A stretch of 64,000 bases of DNA, from contig NZ_BONZ01000030.1 in the NCBI RefSeq assembly GCF_016862975.1, positions 186,001-250,000 on the forward strand, read 5' to 3'. Position numbers and translations under genes: made by a program. The DNA is from Rugosimonospora africana. Its GTDB lineage: Bacteria; Actinomycetota; Actinomycetes; Mycobacteriales; Micromonosporaceae. Under the pieces are notes generated by a model. It was not told where the DNA came from. It did not search any database and saw only the letters and a program-made list of their open reading frames with translations. Numbering within the stretch: the stretch's first letter is position 1; the number at the start of each line of letters is the position of its first letter. Below, in pieces: positions 56,308-63,202 of this stretch.

Positions 56308-58647
56308 ATGCGCGATCGTGTATCCCGAAGATCGGTGCTCACCGGGCTCACCGCCGCGGCCCTGGCCCCGATGGCCCTACCGGAGAAGGCAGGCGCGGAT
56401 CCCGGATCCCAGCCGCGCACGACTGGCCACGAACACTCGACGCTGGAGTCCTCCGCCCTCAGGGTCGAGGTCACGGCGTCGCCCTACTCCTACCGGGTCA
56501 TCGAGAAGTCGACCGGCCACGTGCTGGTCAGCCAGTCGGAGACGCGGTTCACCGCCGGCAGCCAGCTCATCGCCGCGGAGGCGACCGTCACGAGCCGGAG
56601 GAGCAAGGCGCTGGAGGCGCGGCTGAGCCTGGTGGGGACGAGTGACACGGCGCGGGTGCGCTTCACCTTCACCAGCCCCGAGGTGCTGCAGGTGTCGCTG
56701 GCACTCGACAACGGCGCGGCGAGCGCCATCCGCGAACAGTTCGTCGACCGGGGCGAGCACTACTACGGCCTCTGGGAGTATTCCTACAACGGCACCGGCG
56801 GCGCGCTGGACAACCGGGGCGCCGAGGCCGTCGCGTTGCGCGGGTCCTCGAATCCGCCGGTGGGCAGCGGGGACCCGTCGGCCCGCGCACCCTTCTACCT
56901 GACCTCCGGCAGGTACGCCGTCTATGCCCCGTCGGAAGCCAGCGCCCGCTACACCACGGGCGTCGGTGGGGTGACCAACTTCGAGTTCGACTCCCCGACG
57001 CTGACCTACCACGTCATCTACGGGCCGACCTACGCGCAGATGCTGCAACGGTTCAACACGCTGGCCGGCGGCGCGCTCATGCCGCCGCTGTGGGCGTTCG
57101 AGCCGATCTTCTGGCGTGACGACCACACGAACGCGACGGGCCAGGCCCAGCAGGGCGCCGCCAGCGCGCAGGAGCTGGTCAGGATCGACGCGGACAACCT
57201 GCAGCGCTACCAGATCCCGTCGGCGGCCATGTGGATCGACCGCCCGGTGGGCTCCGGCGGGGGCGGACTGGTGGGTTGGGGCAACTTCGATTTCGACCTG
57301 CGGGCCACCTCGTTCCCCGATCCCGAGGCGATGATCGCCGATCTGGCGCGACGGGGGATGCACCTGTTGGTCTGGATCGCCAACCGGGCCAACAACTCGA
57401 TGCTGACCGACCCGGCGTTCACCCCGTACCTGTTCGACGCCGCCAACGGATGGCCGATCGACACCGCCAATCCCGGCGTGGACCTGCGGCAGCGGGAGGC
57501 ATACGACCACTTCAGGCAGAGGCTGCAGGAAGGGTACGTGAACCTGGGCGTACGGGGATACAAGATCGACCGTGGCGAACAGGGCGAGTACCCGGCCGCG
57601 CTGGAAAACGAGCTCGGCGTCCTGATGACCAGGATGGCCCGCGAGTCGGTCGAAGAGGTGTTCCCCGGCGACGGCTTCGTCTTCGGTCGCAACGCGCACG
57701 ACACGTCCCGCAGATACGTGGCGGTCTGGAACGGTGACAGCGACGCCAACGCCTCCGGGCTGGCCGATTCGGTCAAGCAGGTCATCCGGGCCGGAGTGAT
57801 GAACTTCTCGATGGCCGGCTCGGACACCGGTGGCTACAGCGGCACTCCCAACAAGGAGACTTTCGCGCGCTGGCTGGAGTTCAGCACGTACGTGCCGATG
57901 ATGGAAGTGCTACTCGGCCCCAACCGCACCATCTGGACCAACTACGACCAGCAACTCATCGACATCGCTCGTACCCAGACCCAGGCCCATCACGACCTGA
58001 TTCCCTACGCCCGGTCATACCAGTACGCCTCGACGAAGACCGGGATGGCCGCCGTCCGCGCCATGCCCATCATGTTCGAGAACGACCCGGCCGTGGCCGA
58101 CATGTGGGACGAGTACCTGTACGGCAACGAACTGCTGGTGGCCCCCGTCATCATGGCGGGAGCCACCAGTCGTCAGGTCTACCTGCCGGCCGGCACCTGG
58201 ATCGACTACAACGACAAGACCACCACGTTCACCGGTCCGGCCACCATCACCGCGGTTGCGCCCCTGGACACCATCCCCGTGTACGTCCGCGCGGGTGCGA
58301 TCGTCCCGCGTGGCGACATCGTGCGGTCGAACAACAACTGGACGCCCGACTGGGCGCCGACCCTGTCCCTGGAGGTCTTCCCGGCCCGGGGAGTCGACGG
58401 CTTCTTCGACTACTACACCGGCGGCGAGGTGCGGAGAATCACCTGTTCGACGACCCACACGGGAGCCATCCGCCTGCGGTTCGGCAACCTGGGTACCGGC
58501 GGTGCGGTGCAGGTTCACGTCGACCACTTCTCCCGGGTCACGAGGAACGGTGTGAGACTGGCTGCGGGTCACGGCTTCCAGTTCGATCCGGATGCCCGGC
58601 GCCTGACGGTCCCGTTCTCGGGGGCGACCGACATCCAGATCAAGTGA
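56308..58647 (+). CDS. Exported glycoside hydrolase family 31 enzyme
   Basis: 779 residues. A twin-Arg-like signal (SRRSVLTGLTAAALAPMALP) ends near residue 30. An N-terminal beta-sandwich (about 45-240) precedes the GH31 barrel, with nucleophile Asp421 in RGYKIDRGE and acid/base Asp477 in WNGDSD. C-terminal beta domains (about 590-779) follow. GH31 enzymes remove terminal alpha-glucosyl, xylosyl or galactosyl units with retention. Specificity cannot be assigned. GAGGGAA precedes ATG 56308. Confidence 0.93.
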   Translation: MRDRVSRRSVLTGLTAAALAPMALPEKAGADPGSQPRTTGHEHSTLESSALRVEVTASPYSYRVIEKSTGHVLVSQSETRFTAGSQLIAAEATVTSRRSKALEARLSLVGTSDTARVRFTFTSPEVLQVSLALDNGAASAIREQFVDRGEHYYGLWEYSYNGTGGALDNRGAEAVALRGSSNPPVGSGDPSARAPFYLTSGRYAVYAPSEASARYTTGVGGVTNFEFDSPTLTYHVIYGPTYAQMLQRFNTLAGGALMPPLWAFEPIFWRDDHTNATGQAQQGAASAQELVRIDADNLQRYQIPSAAMWIDRPVGSGGGGLVGWGNFDFDLRATSFPDPEAMIADLARRGMHLLVWIANRANNSMLTDPAFTPYLFDAANGWPIDTANPGVDLRQREAYDHFRQRLQEGYVNLGVRGYKIDRGEQGEYPAALENELGVLMTRMARESVEEVFPGDGFVFGRNAHDTSRRYVAVWNGDSDANASGLADSVKQVIRAGVMNFSMAGSDTGGYSGTPNKETFARWLEFSTYVPMMEVLLGPNRTIWTNYDQQLIDIARTQTQAHHDLIPYARSYQYASTKTGMAAVRAMPIMFENDPAVADMWDEYLYGNELLVAPVIMAGATSRQVYLPAGTWIDYNDKTTTFTGPATITAVAPLDTIPVYVRAGAIVPRGDIVRSNNNWTPDWAPTLSLEVFPARGVDGFFDYYTGGEVRRITCSTTHTGAIRLRFGNLGTGGAVQVHVDHFSRVTRNGVRLAAGHGFQFDPDARRLTVPFSGATDIQIK

Positions 58648-58670
58648 TCTCCCGCCGGTAGGTCACCGCA

Positions 58671-58711
58671 CGTTGAGGGGCTGCTGCACGCCGTGCAGCA
58701 GCCCCTCAACG
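58671..58711 (+). terminator. Long perfect palindrome after GH31 gene
   Basis: A perfect 20-bp arm pair (58671-58690, 58692-58711; left arm CGTTGAGGGGCTGCTGCACG) with a single central base, 24 bp after the GH31 stop. It is the strongest hairpin in the window and probably insulates the Cys-rich peptide genes from upstream readthrough. Confidence 0.85.
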
Positions 58712-58844
58712 CGCCCCGCGGCCCGTCGCGCCCTGTCCGGCTACCGCGTGGGTTGTAGGTCGGGATCAATCCCGGGGCGGACGTGAACCATCGAACCCGC
58801 CCATAGCCTCACTCTTTGACAGGTGGCGGCCGGCACTTGGAGAG

Positions 58845-58874: not shown

Positions 58875-59075
58875 ATGTTTCGCAAGCTGGAAGCGATGGG
58901 CAGCGGCCTGCTCGGGCTGTTCGTGCCGAGAGTCGATGCCGGCGCGTGCGGCGCCCAGCAACTGGAGCACTACGGCTCCTGCTGGCAGTGCGAAAGCCAG
59001 TGCGGTTACTGGGCCAGTTGCGCCGCCGAGTGCCGGTCGGGCTGTGGCTGTCAGGTCATCTACTGCGAGTGCTGA
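58875..59075 (+). CDS. Cys-rich secreted peptide precursor 1 (putative RiPP-like)
   Basis: 66 residues; no known family recognised. A 24-residue leader (MFRKLEAMGSGLLGLFVPRV, then DAGA) has basic residues, a short hydrophobic stretch, VP, and an AXA-type end, like a weak signal peptide. Cleavage after Ala24 would leave a 42-residue core beginning CGAQQLEHYG with ten Cys (core positions 1, 12, 15, 19, 25, 29, 33, 35, 40, 42) and Trp at 13 and 22. The even Cys count fits five disulfides. GAGGAG lies 5 nt before ATG. It starts a same-strand run of peptide 2, MauE-like, MauD-like, ABC and S26 peptidase genes. Likely a small disulfide-rich extracellular peptide; activity unknown. Confidence 0.8.
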   Translation: MFRKLEAMGSGLLGLFVPRVDAGACGAQQLEHYGSCWQCESQCGYWASCAAECRSGCGCQVIYCEC

Positions 59076-59107
59076 TTCCTGAACGTCGCCGCGCCTGTCT
59101 GCTCGCT

Positions 59108-59137
59108 TGACACGTTCCGATCCCGTGAGGAGTGCGG
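59108..59137 (+). promoter_or_regulatory. Conserved upstream block of Cys-rich peptide gene 2
   Basis: This 30-nt block starts TGACACGTT and ends GAGGAG plus 5 nt, matching the block before peptide gene 1. It shows that the duplication unit included untranslated sequence. TTGACA (59107-59112) is present here. Confidence 0.6.
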
Positions 59138-59338
59138 ATGTACCGGAAGTTGGAAGCGATGGGCAGCGGTCTGCTCGCGCTGTTCGTACCGAAGGTGGAC
59201 GCCGGAGCCTGCGGCGCGGAGTACCTGACGTCCTACAGCTCGTGCTGGCAGTGTCAGAGTCAGTGTGGCTACTGGGCAAGCTGCGCTGCCCGGTGCCGGT
59301 CGGGCTGCGGCTGTGAGGTCGTTCTCTGTTCATGCTGA
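59138..59338 (+). CDS. Cys-rich secreted peptide precursor 2 (putative RiPP-like)
   Basis: 66 residues from ATG 59138; an in-frame GTG two codons earlier overlaps the ribosome site and is rejected. The leader differs from peptide 1 at 3 of 24 positions (MYRKLEAMGSGLLALFVPKV, DAGA). The core begins CGAEYLTSYS and is identical at 31 of 42 positions, keeping all ten Cys and both Trp. Most changes swap charged or polar residues, leaving core 2 roughly neutral where core 1 is acidic. Selection on the Cys frame and leader implies that both are processed by the same machinery, encoded immediately downstream. Confidence 0.8.
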   Translation: MYRKLEAMGSGLLALFVPKVDAGACGAEYLTSYSSCWQCQSQCGYWASCAARCRSGCGCEVVLCSC

Positions 59339-59433
59339 ATCTCGCCAGTCGCCGCGCTTCCGGGCCCGACCAGGGTCCGGAAGCGCCGACGCGGGCGCGT
59401 CACCGGTAGGCCGTAGCGGCAGCGGAGGACACC

Positions 59434-60036
59434 GTGCAATATCTCGCGTTGGGTATCCGATGTCTGATCGGGACGGTATTCATCGTCTCGTCGATCAGCA
59501 AGGTGGCGGGGCGCTCCGCCTTCGGGCAGTTCGTCGCCTCCGTGCGCGGGTTGCGCCCGCCCACGGCGTTGCCCGTTGTGCCGACGGCGGTCGTGGTGGT
59601 CGCGGCGGAGTTCGCGGTCTGTGCGCTGCTGTGCGCCAACCTGGTCGTCGTGGGATACGCGCTCGCGGTGGCTCTGCTGGTCGGGTTCTCGGTGGCCATC
59701 GCGGGTGCCCTGGCCCGCGGCGTACGGGCGTCCTGCCGGTGCTTCGGCAGTTCCGGCGCGCTGCTGGGACGGCACCACATCGCCCGCAACGCCGGGTTGG
59801 CGCTGGTCGCGGCGTGCGGACTGGTCGTCGGACATCCCGCCGGAGGCGTGCAGCCCGGCGGTGTCGTGCTCGCGGTGCTCGCCGGCCTGATTCTTGGCGG
59901 GCTGGTCGCCGTGCTCGACGACATCGTCGACCTGTTCCGGCCCCTGACCGATGGCGCCGCGCCGCCCCGCCGTGCCAGCGTCACCACCCCGCCGGCGGCC
60001 GGTGTCGAGTCGGGCCAGATCGTGAAGTCACAGTGA
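59434..60036 (+). CDS. MauE/DoxX-like redox-associated membrane protein
   Basis: 200 residues with four membrane helices. A conserved C-x-C pair (C101, C103 in RASCRCFGSSG) follows the third helix, as in MauE-type proteins. MauE works with MauD in forming the many disulfides of the methylamine dehydrogenase small subunit. Here the likely client is the pair of ten-Cys peptides encoded just upstream. GTG 59434 follows GGAGGACACC. No methylamine dehydrogenase genes are present. Confidence 0.85.
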   Translation: MQYLALGIRCLIGTVFIVSSISKVAGRSAFGQFVASVRGLRPPTALPVVPTAVVVVAAEFAVCALLCANLVVVGYALAVALLVGFSVAIAGALARGVRASCRCFGSSGALLGRHHIARNAGLALVAACGLVVGHPAGGVQPGGVVLAVLAGLILGGLVAVLDDIVDLFRPLTDGAAPPRRASVTTPPAAGVESGQIVKSQ

Positions 60037-60058
60037 GTCGAGACGACCGGAGATGTCG

Positions 60059-60607
60059 ATGCCTTTCGTAATCGCCGCCATCGCTCTTGTTGGCATGGTC
60101 TGCGTTGTGAATCTGGTGCTCAGCGTCGGCGTGATAAAGCGGCTGCGCGAGCACACGGCGCTGTTGTCGGCCACCGGCGTGCCGTCCCAGCCGGCATTGA
60201 CGATCGGCGACGCGGTGGACGCGTTCGCCACCACGACCGTGAACGGCGAGTCGGTCAGCTACGAAGACGTGACCGCCGAGACCCTCGTCGGCTTCTTCAC
60301 CCCCGGCTGCGGGCCCTGCGAGAAGAGGCTTCCCGAGTTCGTCGCCTATGCGCGCACGCTGCCGGGCGGGCGCGACCGAGTACTGGCCACCGTCGTCGCG
60401 TCCGATCCCGCGGAGGCCGCCGGTTACGTCGCGGAACTCGGGCAGGTCGCCAGGGTGGTGCTCGAAGACAGCACCGGCGTGGCGACCCGTGCCTTCCGGG
60501 TCAGCGCCTACCCGACCGTACTCATGGTCGCGCCCGACCCCGACGGTCGCGTCCTGGTCACCGCTGACCGGATCCGGTTGGACCGCGCGGTCGTCGCCGC
60601 GGCATGA
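60059..60607 (+). CDS. MauD/TlpA-like membrane-anchored thioredoxin
   Basis: 182 residues. An N-terminal membrane anchor (FVIAAIALVGMVCVVNLVLS) holds a thioredoxin fold outside the cell, with active site C84-G-P-C87 (FTPGCGPCEKRLP) and cis-Pro in SAYPTV. It probably oxidises or shuffles disulfides in the Cys-rich peptides with the MauE-like partner. ATG 60059 is preferred to ATG 60053 because GGAG sits 6 nt before it. Its stop overlaps the ABC gene start (ATGA). Confidence 0.88.
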   Translation: MPFVIAAIALVGMVCVVNLVLSVGVIKRLREHTALLSATGVPSQPALTIGDAVDAFATTTVNGESVSYEDVTAETLVGFFTPGCGPCEKRLPEFVAYARTLPGGRDRVLATVVASDPAEAAGYVAELGQVARVVLEDSTGVATRAFRVSAYPTVLMVAPDPDGRVLVTADRIRLDRAVVAAA

Positions 60608-62511
60608 CCGGTCCCGCACGCACTTCCGGGGCGGGTCCCGGCGGTCGTCGATTCGGCCGCATCCGTCGTGGCCTGCGGCTCACAACGCTCGCGCGCCGGG
60701 TGGCCGCCGCGTGCGCGCTGGCCCTCGTCGCCGCCCCGGCGACCGTCGCCTGGTACGTCGTGCTCACCCTCACCGCCGGTCTGGCGCCGGTGGCGGCCGC
60801 GTGGCTGACCAAGCTGGCCCTCGACAACCTCGTCCAGCGCGGCCCGCTGGGCTCGCTTTTCGCGATCGTCGGTGGTCTCGCCGCCGTCGGCGTGATCGCC
60901 GCGGTGCAGCCGCCGCTGACCCAGTACCTCCGTGCCGAACTGGATCGCCGGGTCGGCCTCCTGGCCCAGAACCGGCTGTTCACCGCCGTGGACGGCTTCG
61001 TCGGCATCGGCCCGTTCGAGAACCCGGTCTTTCTCGACCGGCTGCGACTGGCCCAACAGTCCGGCGGTACGACGCCCAATCAGGTGGTCGACGGGGTGCT
61101 GGGCATCGGCCGGGCCGCGCTGACCATTGCCGGGTTCCTCAGTTCCCTGCTGGTGCTGGGTCCGCTGATGGCCGTTGCCGCGCTGGCGTCCGGGCTGCCG
61201 GCGTTGGTCGCCGAGCTGGCCATGTCCCGGCGGCGAGCGCGGATGTACTGGAGGATCGGCCCGGCCGAACGTCGTGAGGCGTTCTACGGCAGCCTACTGT
61301 CCACTGTGGAGGCCGCCAAGGAGATCCGCCTGTTCGGCATCGGCACCTTTCTCCGGGAAAGGATGCTCGCCGAGCGGCGCACCGCCAACGCGGCGAAGCG
61401 CGCCGTCGACCGGCGGGATGTGCTCCAGCAAGCCGGCCTCGGGTTCATCGCCGCGGTCGTGTGCGGCGCCGGGCTGATGTGGGCGGTCAGCGCGGCGCGC
61501 GCCGGCCGGCTGTCGGTCGGCGACGTGACCGTGTTCGTCGCCGCGGTCGCCGGCATGCAGGGAGCGATGGCCACGCTGGCCAACCAGGTCGCCCGGGCAC
61601 ACCATGGACTGCTCATGTTCGACCACTACCGCGCGGTGGTCGACAGCCGCCCCGATCTGCCCATCGCCGCGCCGCCCGCGTCCATGGCTCCACTGCGCGA
61701 GGGCATCGAGTTCCAGGACGTCTGGTTCCGCTATTCAGACCAGCATCCGTGGGTACTGCGGGGGGTCAACCTGCGGATTCCCAGCGGCGGCTCGTGCGCG
61801 CTGGTGGGTCTCAACGGCGCGGGCAAGTCGACTCTGGTCAAACTGCTGTGCCGGCTCTACGACCCGACCCGTGGCGTGATCCGTTGGGACGGGAGGGATC
61901 TGCGCGAGGTCGACCCGGCCGAACTGCGACGGCGTATCGGTGCGGTCTTCCAGGACTACATGGAGTACGACCTCACCGCGGCGGAGAACATCGGCCTCGG
62001 CGACGTGGACGGCTTCGGTGACCGGGAGCGGATCGAGACGGCCGGCCGGCAATCGGGAATCCACGACAAGTTGGCCGGCCTTCCGCAGGGATACGACACC
62101 TTGCTGACCCGGATGTTCTTCATGGAATCCGAGCGGGACGACCCGGAGACCGGTGTGGTGCTCTCCGGCGGCCAGTGGCAACGCATCGCGCTGGCCCGGG
62201 CGCTCATGCGCAACCGCCGGGACCTGATGATCCTCGACGAGCCGTCGGCGGGGCTCGACGCGGAGGCCGAGCACGAGGTCCACGCGTCACTGCGGCGCCT
62301 GCGCAGCGGACAGACCAGCCTGCTCATCTCACACCGCCTCGGTGCCGTACGGGACGCGGATCTGATCGTCGTGCTGTCCGACGGAAGCGTGGTCGAACTG
62401 GGGGACCACACGACACTGATGCGCCGCGGCGGCGAGTACGCCCGCCTGTTCGCGCTTCAGGCTTCCGGATACCAGCCGCGGGACGAGCTTCAACCGTCGG
62501 TTTCCGGATGA
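60604..62511 (+). CDS. ABC transporter, fused membrane and ATPase domains
   Basis: 635 residues. A six-helix exporter domain (about 35-330) and an ATPase with Walker A GLNGAGKST (402-410), signature LSGGQWQ (about 520-526), Walker B LMILDEP (541-547) and H-loop SHRLG. There is no N-terminal C39 protease domain, which agrees with the absence of a double-Gly motif in the peptides: cleavage must be done by another protein, the S26 peptidase encoded next. Probably exports the Cys-rich peptides. Overlaps both neighbours by ATGA. Confidence 0.93.
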   Translation: MTGPARTSGAGPGGRRFGRIRRGLRLTTLARRVAAACALALVAAPATVAWYVVLTLTAGLAPVAAAWLTKLALDNLVQRGPLGSLFAIVGGLAAVGVIAAVQPPLTQYLRAELDRRVGLLAQNRLFTAVDGFVGIGPFENPVFLDRLRLAQQSGGTTPNQVVDGVLGIGRAALTIAGFLSSLLVLGPLMAVAALASGLPALVAELAMSRRRARMYWRIGPAERREAFYGSLLSTVEAAKEIRLFGIGTFLRERMLAERRTANAAKRAVDRRDVLQQAGLGFIAAVVCGAGLMWAVSAARAGRLSVGDVTVFVAAVAGMQGAMATLANQVARAHHGLLMFDHYRAVVDSRPDLPIAAPPASMAPLREGIEFQDVWFRYSDQHPWVLRGVNLRIPSGGSCALVGLNGAGKSTLVKLLCRLYDPTRGVIRWDGRDLREVDPAELRRRIGAVFQDYMEYDLTAAENIGLGDVDGFGDRERIETAGRQSGIHDKLAGLPQGYDTLLTRMFFMESERDDPETGVVLSGGQWQRIALARALMRNRRDLMILDEPSAGLDAEAEHEVHASLRRLRSGQTSLLISHRLGAVRDADLIVVLSDGSVVELGDHTTLMRRGGEYARLFALQASGYQPRDELQPSVSG

Positions 62512-63137
62512 GCGACCAACCGGCGCCCGGCGCGATCCGGACGATGCCGATCGACGGGATGGAAAGCCGCGGTCGCGGCGGCCGTCGCGTCCACCGGTGG
62601 GGCGCGGTGGTGATTGCCGTGGCCCTGCTCGGTGATGCGCTGCTTGCCGCCGCGCTGGGTCAGACGTCCGGCTGGGTCGCGGCCTGCGCGGTCGCCTGCG
62701 GGCCGTGGCTCGTGCTGATGGTGGCCGGGGCGGTGGCAGCCAGGCGACTCGTCGCGGTGAGGGTGAACGGCGACAGCATGTCGCCGACCTACCGCGACGG
62801 CGACCGGGTGATCGCCCGCCGTCGGGTATCGATTCGGGTGGGGCACGTGGTGGTGGTCGAACAACCATCGGATGCCGGCGGCTGGCCCGGCCCGGTGCTC
62901 GCGCGCGGGGCGGGAGCCCGGGCGGTTGCTGCCCGCCGATGGATGATCAAACGGGTTGCCGCGGTGCCGGGTGACCCGACACCGCCGGTACCCGGTCTGC
63001 CAGGTGGCACCGTACCGGCCGGTGCGCTGGTGCTGCTCGGTGACAACCAGCGGTCCAGCTTCGACTCCCGGCAGATCGGGTACTTCCCCCTCGCGCGAGT
63101 GCTGGGTACGGTCCTGCGCGCTCCGGCGCCACGGTAG
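62508..63137 (+). CDS. S26-family signal peptidase I-like protease
   Basis: 209 residues. Two N-terminal membrane helices (about 31-50 and 55-78) precede the extracytoplasmic Ser/Lys protease with Ser90 (NGDSMSPTYRDGD), Lys148 (MIKRVAAVPGD) and the C-terminal GDNQRSSFDSRQIG box. All signal peptidase I boxes are present, so it should be active. It is the last gene of the peptide operon and the likely enzyme that cuts the peptides after the DAGA motif. It is too long and too well anchored to be a typical SodX, though it shares the S26 fold. Confidence 0.9.
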   Translation: MSDQPAPGAIRTMPIDGMESRGRGGRRVHRWGAVVIAVALLGDALLAAALGQTSGWVAACAVACGPWLVLMVAGAVAARRLVAVRVNGDSMSPTYRDGDRVIARRRVSIRVGHVVVVEQPSDAGGWPGPVLARGAGARAVAARRWMIKRVAAVPGDPTPPVPGLPGGTVPAGALVLLGDNQRSSFDSRQIGYFPLARVLGTVLRAPAPR

Positions 63138-63157: not shown

Positions 63158-63202
63158 CGCCGCCCGGCGCCGCCGGTGCCGGACCGGCGGCGCCCGGCGG
63201 CG
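63158..63202. terminator. Hairpin terminator between S26 peptidase and GH30-like genes
   Basis: A 20-bp stem with one mismatch (63158-63177, 63183-63202) and loop GCCGG lies between convergent genes. It marks the end of the Cys-rich peptide operon. Confidence 0.85.

Follow-up and report, generated by a model that had tools for sequence, protein, structure and literature searches.

Gene content of the locus

We describe a compact six-gene locus of Rugosimonospora africana that encodes two cysteine-rich precursor peptides together with four partner proteins, a gene set that very probably forms a self-contained cassette for a ribosomally made, disulfide-locked, exported peptide. The locus lies in a 64,000-nucleotide stretch of contig NZ_BONZ01000030.1 (positions 186,001 to 250,000; C30 below), which we analyzed as a whole and refer to as the window; its six genes, all on the forward strand, span window positions 58875–63137 of this contig of the 11.1-Mb genome.

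The first gene (58875–59075) encodes precursor 1, 66 residues long, in which a leader ending in VDAGA (residues 1–24) precedes a 42-residue core with ten cysteines. Precursor 2 (59138–59338; read from an ATG, with an in-frame GTG also present at 59132) has the same length and the same number of cysteines, and is 79% identical to precursor 1. There follow a MauE family membrane protein (59434–60036; PF07291) with an invariant CxC motif (C101, C103), a membrane-anchored MauD/TlpA-like thioredoxin (60053–60607; PF00578) with a CGPC motif (C86, C89), an ATP-binding cassette (ABC) exporter (60604–62511) in which the transmembrane domain is fused to the nucleotide-binding domain and which lacks a C39 peptidase domain, and an S26 peptidase (62508–63137) with a Ser90–Lys148 dyad and two hydrophobic stretches N-terminal of the catalytic serine. 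ATGA overlaps at 60604–60607 and 62508–62511 join the thioredoxin, ABC, and S26 genes.

A first-pass annotation of this DNA, made from its letters, had described most of this arrangement, and the closer analysis bears it out: two tandem ten-cysteine precursors with near-identical leaders that contain no cysteine, a MauE protein, a CGPC thioredoxin, and an ABC protein without C39 (confirmed by family profile matches), an intact signal peptidase I homologue (the dyad is present, and the TIGR02227 score given below exceeds its cut-off), and ATGA coupling of the last three genes, as read in the sequence. The same annotation placed a strong terminator at each end, which holds only in part: hairpins do flank the cassette, one upstream between it and a glycoside hydrolase family 31 gene (58668–58714, no strand assigned; 23-nt arms, z −7.3) and a GC-rich one downstream (63158–63202, no strand assigned; 20-nt arms, z −2.6), but neither has a T tract, and a terminator scan of the window listed neither. 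The glycoside hydrolase gene itself (56308–58647, forward strand) adjoins the cassette on its upstream side.

The cassette recurs among actinomycetes

Because relatives of the locus keep its leader, its even number of cysteines, and its partner genes, the arrangement is more than a chance grouping. A search with precursor 2 across 354 genomes of the same family gave a match in 23 of them, at 26 places, some weak; 20 of these places were fetched with their flanks (the weak places G076, G052, G063, and G204 were left out), and all four partners are present at 14 of the 20, three at L028, and two at L036, which stops at a contig end; the remaining four lack real partners. Precursor plus partners thus occur in at least 15 of the 354 genomes. 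We rejected L043, L045, and L046 as precursor matches: partners are lacking there, or limited to a generic ABC match of 31–33% identity. Two of the fetched loci depart from the usual layout: L042 (6224–6906, reverse strand) carries two tandem 8-cysteine precursors with the same leader type, and the four partners were not found there within 14 kb, while L030 (1–10203, genome G212) holds two adjoining cassettes on opposite strands, the MauE counted for L030 belonging to the neighboring second cassette.

Among 394 genomes of the class, a profile built from 18 precursors found matches in 13, the R. africana genome included. Spread outside the class was considered for the single match beyond the own one among 296 genomes of the phylum (genome G772, locus L113), and was rejected for lack of partner genes. 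For the class and phylum searches together 19 loci were fetched: all four partners occur at 16 of them, three at L108, two at L099, and none at L113. Within R. africana itself, contigs C30, C45, and C80 carry cassettes, and contig C36 has an incomplete one (L114, 6945–9001), which comprises an S26 peptidase, a thioredoxin, and a 9-cysteine precursor without the close ABC type. A search of plasmids with precursor 2 gave no match.

The first-pass annotation had proposed a neighborhood search that combines the leader with co-occurrence of S26, MauE, and MauD. We scanned named genomes from the exporter side, using 13 aligned ABC fragments as the query and keeping 80 loci of at least 513 relatives, all with actinomycete titles; the partner profiles were built from the earlier precursor-picked loci, and some of the 80 loci end at contig ends. 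MauD was found at 75 of these loci, S26 at 73, MauE at 63, and a precursor recognized by a leader model at 66, with all four partners at 60. Removal of three loci that repeat training loci (L115, L141, and L178, all complete) leaves 77, with MauD at 72, S26 at 70, MauE at 60, a precursor at 63, and all four partners at 57. The commonest order, precursor–MauE–MauD–ABC–S26, is that of the window and occurs at 25 of the 66 loci with a precursor; in 65 of the 66, the precursor lies no more than 500 bases from a partner frame. The whole 11.1-Mb genome has six places that match PF07291, too few for a neighbor within 16.5 kb to be expected by chance. The precursor pair seen in the window, in contrast, proved not to be a general feature, as the leader model finds two precursors at 6 of the 66 loci.

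Taxa with the cassette include Micromonospora, Streptomyces, Nonomuraea, Nocardiopsis, and other actinomycetes. Plasmid pSCL4 of Streptomyces clavuligerus (L231) carries two 6-cysteine precursors, a MauE/DoxX protein, a protein matching the MauD profile, an ABC protein, and an S26 peptidase in the six-gene layout of the window, and a plasmid of Streptomyces atratus has one 6-cysteine precursor and MauE, MauD, ABC, and S26 genes, with a BTAD regulator annotated alongside. Database records annotate the partner genes and list the precursors as hypothetical proteins. The cassette is real and widespread, on chromosomes and plasmids alike, and is a ribosomal-peptide variant of a kind flagged before in outline (see below). 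At two loci (L157, 6645–7153, and L180, 7050–7244) short 4-cysteine precursors stand with ABC and S26 genes, and MauE and MauD were not found by the profiles; these may represent a minimal variant.

A constant leader, variable cores, and an even number of cysteines

The window precursors match no Pfam or NCBIfam family, and neither do nine of their relatives above cut-off. Members of this kind, unmatched by any family in the 11 examined, are recognized by a leader model. The features below come from 109 precursors, 37 from precursor-picked loci and 72 found through the leader model at ABC-picked loci. In the window precursors and their relatives the leader is cysteine-free and the cores are variable; over 1,500 sampled pairs, mean identity is 42% for leaders versus 25% for non-cysteine core positions, the leader conservation figures being favored by the search that supplied the 72. 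Leaders end in A-x-A preceded by [V/L]-P, with alanine at −3 in 102 of 109. Alanine at −1 (100%) and proline at −7 (97%) follow partly by construction, as our rule for splitting leader from core demands the former and looks for a proline a few residues earlier; an alternative rule, blind to proline but cutting many leaders early, places proline at −5 or −7 in 95%. An A-x-A motif is the classical cleavage site of S26 signal peptidases. None of the 109 leaders reaches a mean hydropathy of 1.8 over 12 residues, in a simple scan made without positive controls and not with SignalP.

The number of cysteines is even in 106 of the 109 precursors. When the cores are clustered at 90% identity, 87 of 90 clusters are even, and at 45% identity 30 of 32 are. 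Two odd clusters in 32 correspond to a binomial P of 1.2e-7, or of 1.9e-4 when control open reading frames supply the odd rate. That control is imperfect: small frames with 5–12 cysteines are odd in 340 of 498 cases, mostly with five cysteines, and the latter P is based on frames restricted to 6–11 cysteines, of which 84 of 242 are odd. Precursors recognized later, by eye or by annotation, are all even (L136, L138, L142, L151 with two, L184, the second of L042, and three on plasmids); those picked by eye, at the loci named, were chosen to have at least 4 cysteines. If all cysteines are paired, an even number is what one expects; selection for pairing would give it, whereas metal sites or thioethers need not.

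The combination of a short precursor, a conserved leader joined to a variable core, and adjoining processing and export genes matches the pattern of bacteriocin-like ribosomally synthesized and post-translationally modified peptides (RiPPs). A bacteriocin of the double-glycine (C39) type was considered and rejected, as no C39 peptidase is found among the 13 Pfam families of the window ABC protein and the leaders end in A-x-A. Fulvocin C was considered as well and set aside.

The redox and processing partners

The window MauE protein matches PF07291 with an E value of 2.4e-20 and 73.6 bits (cut-off 27), and the CxC motif, within a positively charged loop, is invariant in 32 of 32 homologues. 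Its structure model (predicted local distance difference test score, pLDDT, 88) has NACHO/TMEM35A as the nearest solved chain (Z 12.6, root-mean-square deviation 2.4 over 118 residues), with a Z of 5.5 to a VKOR chain; the former match has a Foldseek E value of 0.8, such Z scores can be common in helical bundles, and we claim no kinship from it. The thioredoxin matches PF00578 (E 2.3e-6), and its cysteine pair is invariant in 35 of 35 while the residues between vary. Maturation of methylamine dehydrogenase involves MauE and MauD, as summarised in PMC7794033, and the roles that we assign to the two redox proteins here are inferred from that case. The cassette shares with the methylamine dehydrogenase system a MauE protein beside a membrane-anchored thioredoxin and a cysteine-rich substrate; it differs in having an ABC exporter and an S26 peptidase instead of the mau genes, and in a thioredoxin far below the MauD cut-off.

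The S26 protein scores 64.1 bits with TIGR02227 (cut-off 47) and exceeds the cut-off of PF10502, which places it within the family, and its serine and lysine are invariant in 36 of 36 cassette proteins. With TIGR02754, the model for the protease of nickel superoxide dismutase (NiSOD), it scores 39 bits, under the cut-off of 63.25. S26 proteins beside sodN also fall under that cut-off in all of the 10 genomes searched (8 of the 10 have such a protein), so that clade and gene neighborhood weigh more here than the score. In a tree of S26 proteins, the SodX proteins form one group and the LepB proteins another, and a weakly supported branch (72/87) separates the cassette proteins from these two groups. 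Long branches come together in this tree, its bootstrap had not settled, and two other S26 proteins, those of L080 and L087, fall among the cassette proteins.

The comparison with NiSOD extends to the leaders. We read NiSOD leaders at 20 loci: across the seven f25 genomes, six have MLSRLFAPKVKVSA directly ahead of HCDLPCG and one has the same leader with Q in place of K, and the leader at L050 is MRLSHLLTSRLFVPQATASA. At their ends these leaders resemble the corresponding part of the cassette leader (RLL..FVPKV.A.A). SodN has SodX as its cognate peptidase (PMC3919588). Judged by their sequences, the cassette leader resembles that of NiSOD in motif and may resemble it in task, a likeness that is new here: both systems join a short leader with a similar end (for example MLSRLFAPKVKVSA before HC) to a small S26 peptidase partner. 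SodN, however, is an enzyme and not a cysteine-rich peptide, and SodX is shorter, forms its own clade, and, by eye, mostly lacks a transmembrane stretch N-terminal of the serine. Such a likeness would link the cassette peptides to NiSOD maturation. The window also holds one of the two NiSOD genes of the genome (40418–40840, reverse strand), with the leader MRLPRLLTPSTVVRA before HCDLPCG; an S26 match adjoins the other NiSOD copy, on contig C9, and none is listed beside the window copy.

A proposed pathway and the points that weigh on it

In the pathway that we propose, the leader, which is probably not hydrophobic enough to act as a Sec signal, would direct the precursor to the machinery at the membrane. 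The S26 peptidase would cut after A-x-A (in the window, after VDAGA, leaving 42-residue cores), the MauD-like thioredoxin, re-oxidised via the CxC motif of MauE, would pair all cysteines, giving five disulfides per window core, and the ABC protein would export the product. The first-pass annotation had suggested a dedicated system for making, exporting, oxidising, and trimming disulfide-rich peptides, and it gains support from the recurrence of the five families, the A-x-A site, and the even number of cysteines.

A regulator family lies near 36 of the 80 ABC-picked loci and is the sole other family to recur in more than 7 of the 80; a BTAD domain is present in its representative and in three similar proteins of the earlier loci. 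Leaders that stay constant, cores that change fast, and the presence of a BTAD-type regulator at many loci would fit a secreted weapon or signal, and our best guess at the activity is an antimicrobial peptide. If the proposed pathway is right, these bacterial peptides form a large family that can be put to the test: genetically encoded, rich in disulfides, and accompanied by folding machinery of their own.

Several observations weigh against this picture. Odd precursors exist: one with 7 cysteines at L135, two with 11 and 9 at L186, and one with 9 at L114, outside the set of 109. The structure model of the precursor is weak (pLDDT 65; core blocks 68–86, in the order strand–helix–strand–strand) and has no match in the PDB, and we do not claim a defensin-like fold. 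The thioredoxin reaches 17.5 bits against a cut-off of 188.6 for the MauD equivalog model TIGR02661. MauE was not found at 17 of the 80 ABC-picked loci, nor at L028, the genome's own copy on C45; at 14 of the 80 the leader model recognizes no precursor, and at five of these 14 a likely one can be picked out by eye. The regulator was not found in the window or at the other loci of the genome's own cassettes, in a search with part of the representative, and we saw no conserved immunity gene.

The two odd precursors of L186 (10300–10822, Micromonospora maritima) are convergent, and because both are odd, they suggest a candidate disulfide-linked heterodimer. No second precursor is shown at L135 or L114.

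On which side of the membrane do the steps occur?

The first-pass annotation supposed that the peptides are exported and then oxidised and trimmed. We assessed the membrane side by a simple count, under uncertain start codons, that compares positive residues between the transmembrane stretch and the catalytic serine with those N-terminal of that stretch. Of the cassette S26 proteins, 33 were assessable and three were not; among the 33, 28 are more positive between the transmembrane stretch and the serine. In the 80 ABC-picked loci, 51 S26 proteins show this inverted pattern, 7 are equal, 4 are opposite, and 11 are not judgeable. The reverse pattern appears in all six LepB controls, which are the distinct proteins encoded at 9 places in three genomes. 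For MauE, mean lysine plus arginine is 4.9 and 4.5 in loops 1 and 3, the latter holding the CxC motif, as against 0.2 and 0.3 for loops 2 and 4, while the thioredoxin has no lysine or arginine in residues 1–5 and a net charge of +1.7 in residues 25–40, after its transmembrane stretch. By the positive-inside rule, the sites of all three proteins would then face the cytoplasm. The active sites of S26, MauD, and MauE may therefore tend to the cytoplasmic side, with trimming and oxidation before export; the charge patterns lean the opposite way from the supposed order. Such a disposition would offer a route to form disulfides ahead of export.

The conventional order nevertheless keeps an even chance in our estimation: the full precursor would be exported first by the ABC protein, and the S26 peptidase, thioredoxin, and MauE would act outside, as in LepB and Dsb systems. 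By the classical view S26 peptidases and A-x-A sites belong outside the cytoplasm, which is itself a reducing compartment, and TlpA/MauD proteins are usually placed outside as well. Moreover, the simple rule does not give the inverted pattern for the window S26, L028, L096, or L108, which are opposite, or for L107, which is even. The window S26 and L028 proteins seem to have two transmembrane stretches, for which the rule is unsuited; in the window protein these follow a positive N terminus, an arrangement that would also put the catalytic domain inside. Against the conventional order stand the inverted excess among cassette S26 proteins (28 of 33, and 51 of the 62 judged in the larger set), its reversal in LepB, the concentration of MauE loop charge on the CxC side, and the charge asymmetry of the thioredoxin.

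We accordingly hold only tentatively, and as somewhat likelier wrong than right, the fuller picture of a station at the cytoplasmic face, in which an inverted S26 peptidase, in a role like that of the NiSOD protease, would cut a NiSOD-like leader, the thioredoxin and MauE, their redox sites turned inward, would pair all the cysteines, and the ABC protein, lacking C39, would then export a folded peptide, with the odd pair of L186 forming a heterodimer.

Other possible fates for the cysteines

Two further explanations concern the product itself. Under the first, which we consider unlikely, the cysteines would carry other links, such as thioethers, or the product would be a developmental surface peptide instead of a weapon or signal. 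Many small exported actinomycete peptides are developmental; the patchy spread of the cassette, with precursor and partners in few genomes of the family, speaks against that role. As for other links, no modifying enzyme stands out by eye among the 25 commonest neighbor families, in an inspection that did not look specifically for lanthionine, radical SAM, or YcaO enzymes. The second, that the cores bind metal without disulfides, as a metallophore or a metallothionein-like peptide akin to the nickel enzyme, is more improbable still: the leader likeness to NiSOD, the subthreshold S26 score with the NiSOD-protease model, and a faint match of MauE to a copper-RiPP maturation model (E 0.05) speak for it, but metal binding does not need the even parity, two redox proteins recur, and the cores are poor in histidine (1.9%) and rich in tyrosine (7.5%).

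Relation to described systems

The first-pass annotation knew of no characterised product with this gene set, and we likewise found none for such a cassette in the literature searched, which leaves out most subscription journals; the kind itself, however, had already been flagged. As far as the sources go, only decRiPPter (PMC7794033) does so beforehand, and in outline: among its Streptomyces candidates are three families with mauE, one of them also with mauD, whose predicted precursors have at least 8 cysteines, retained by a filter that required transporter, peptidase, and regulator genes. The likeness to our cassette, drawn from the description alone, lies in mauE (with mauD in one family) and the cysteine-rich predicted precursors; the difference is that those families are a computational listing, and that the leader motif, cleavage site, and cysteine parity do not figure in the section of that paper devoted to them.

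A second point of comparison is the TMcin bacteriocins (PMC13252029), which likewise combine a ribosomal peptide, leader removal, a dedicated oxidoreductase, and ABC export. They differ from the cassette peptides in having a single disulfide, a DsbA-like oxidoreductase (TmcD), an S2P-type protease (TmcP), and an ABC exporter divided over two genes.

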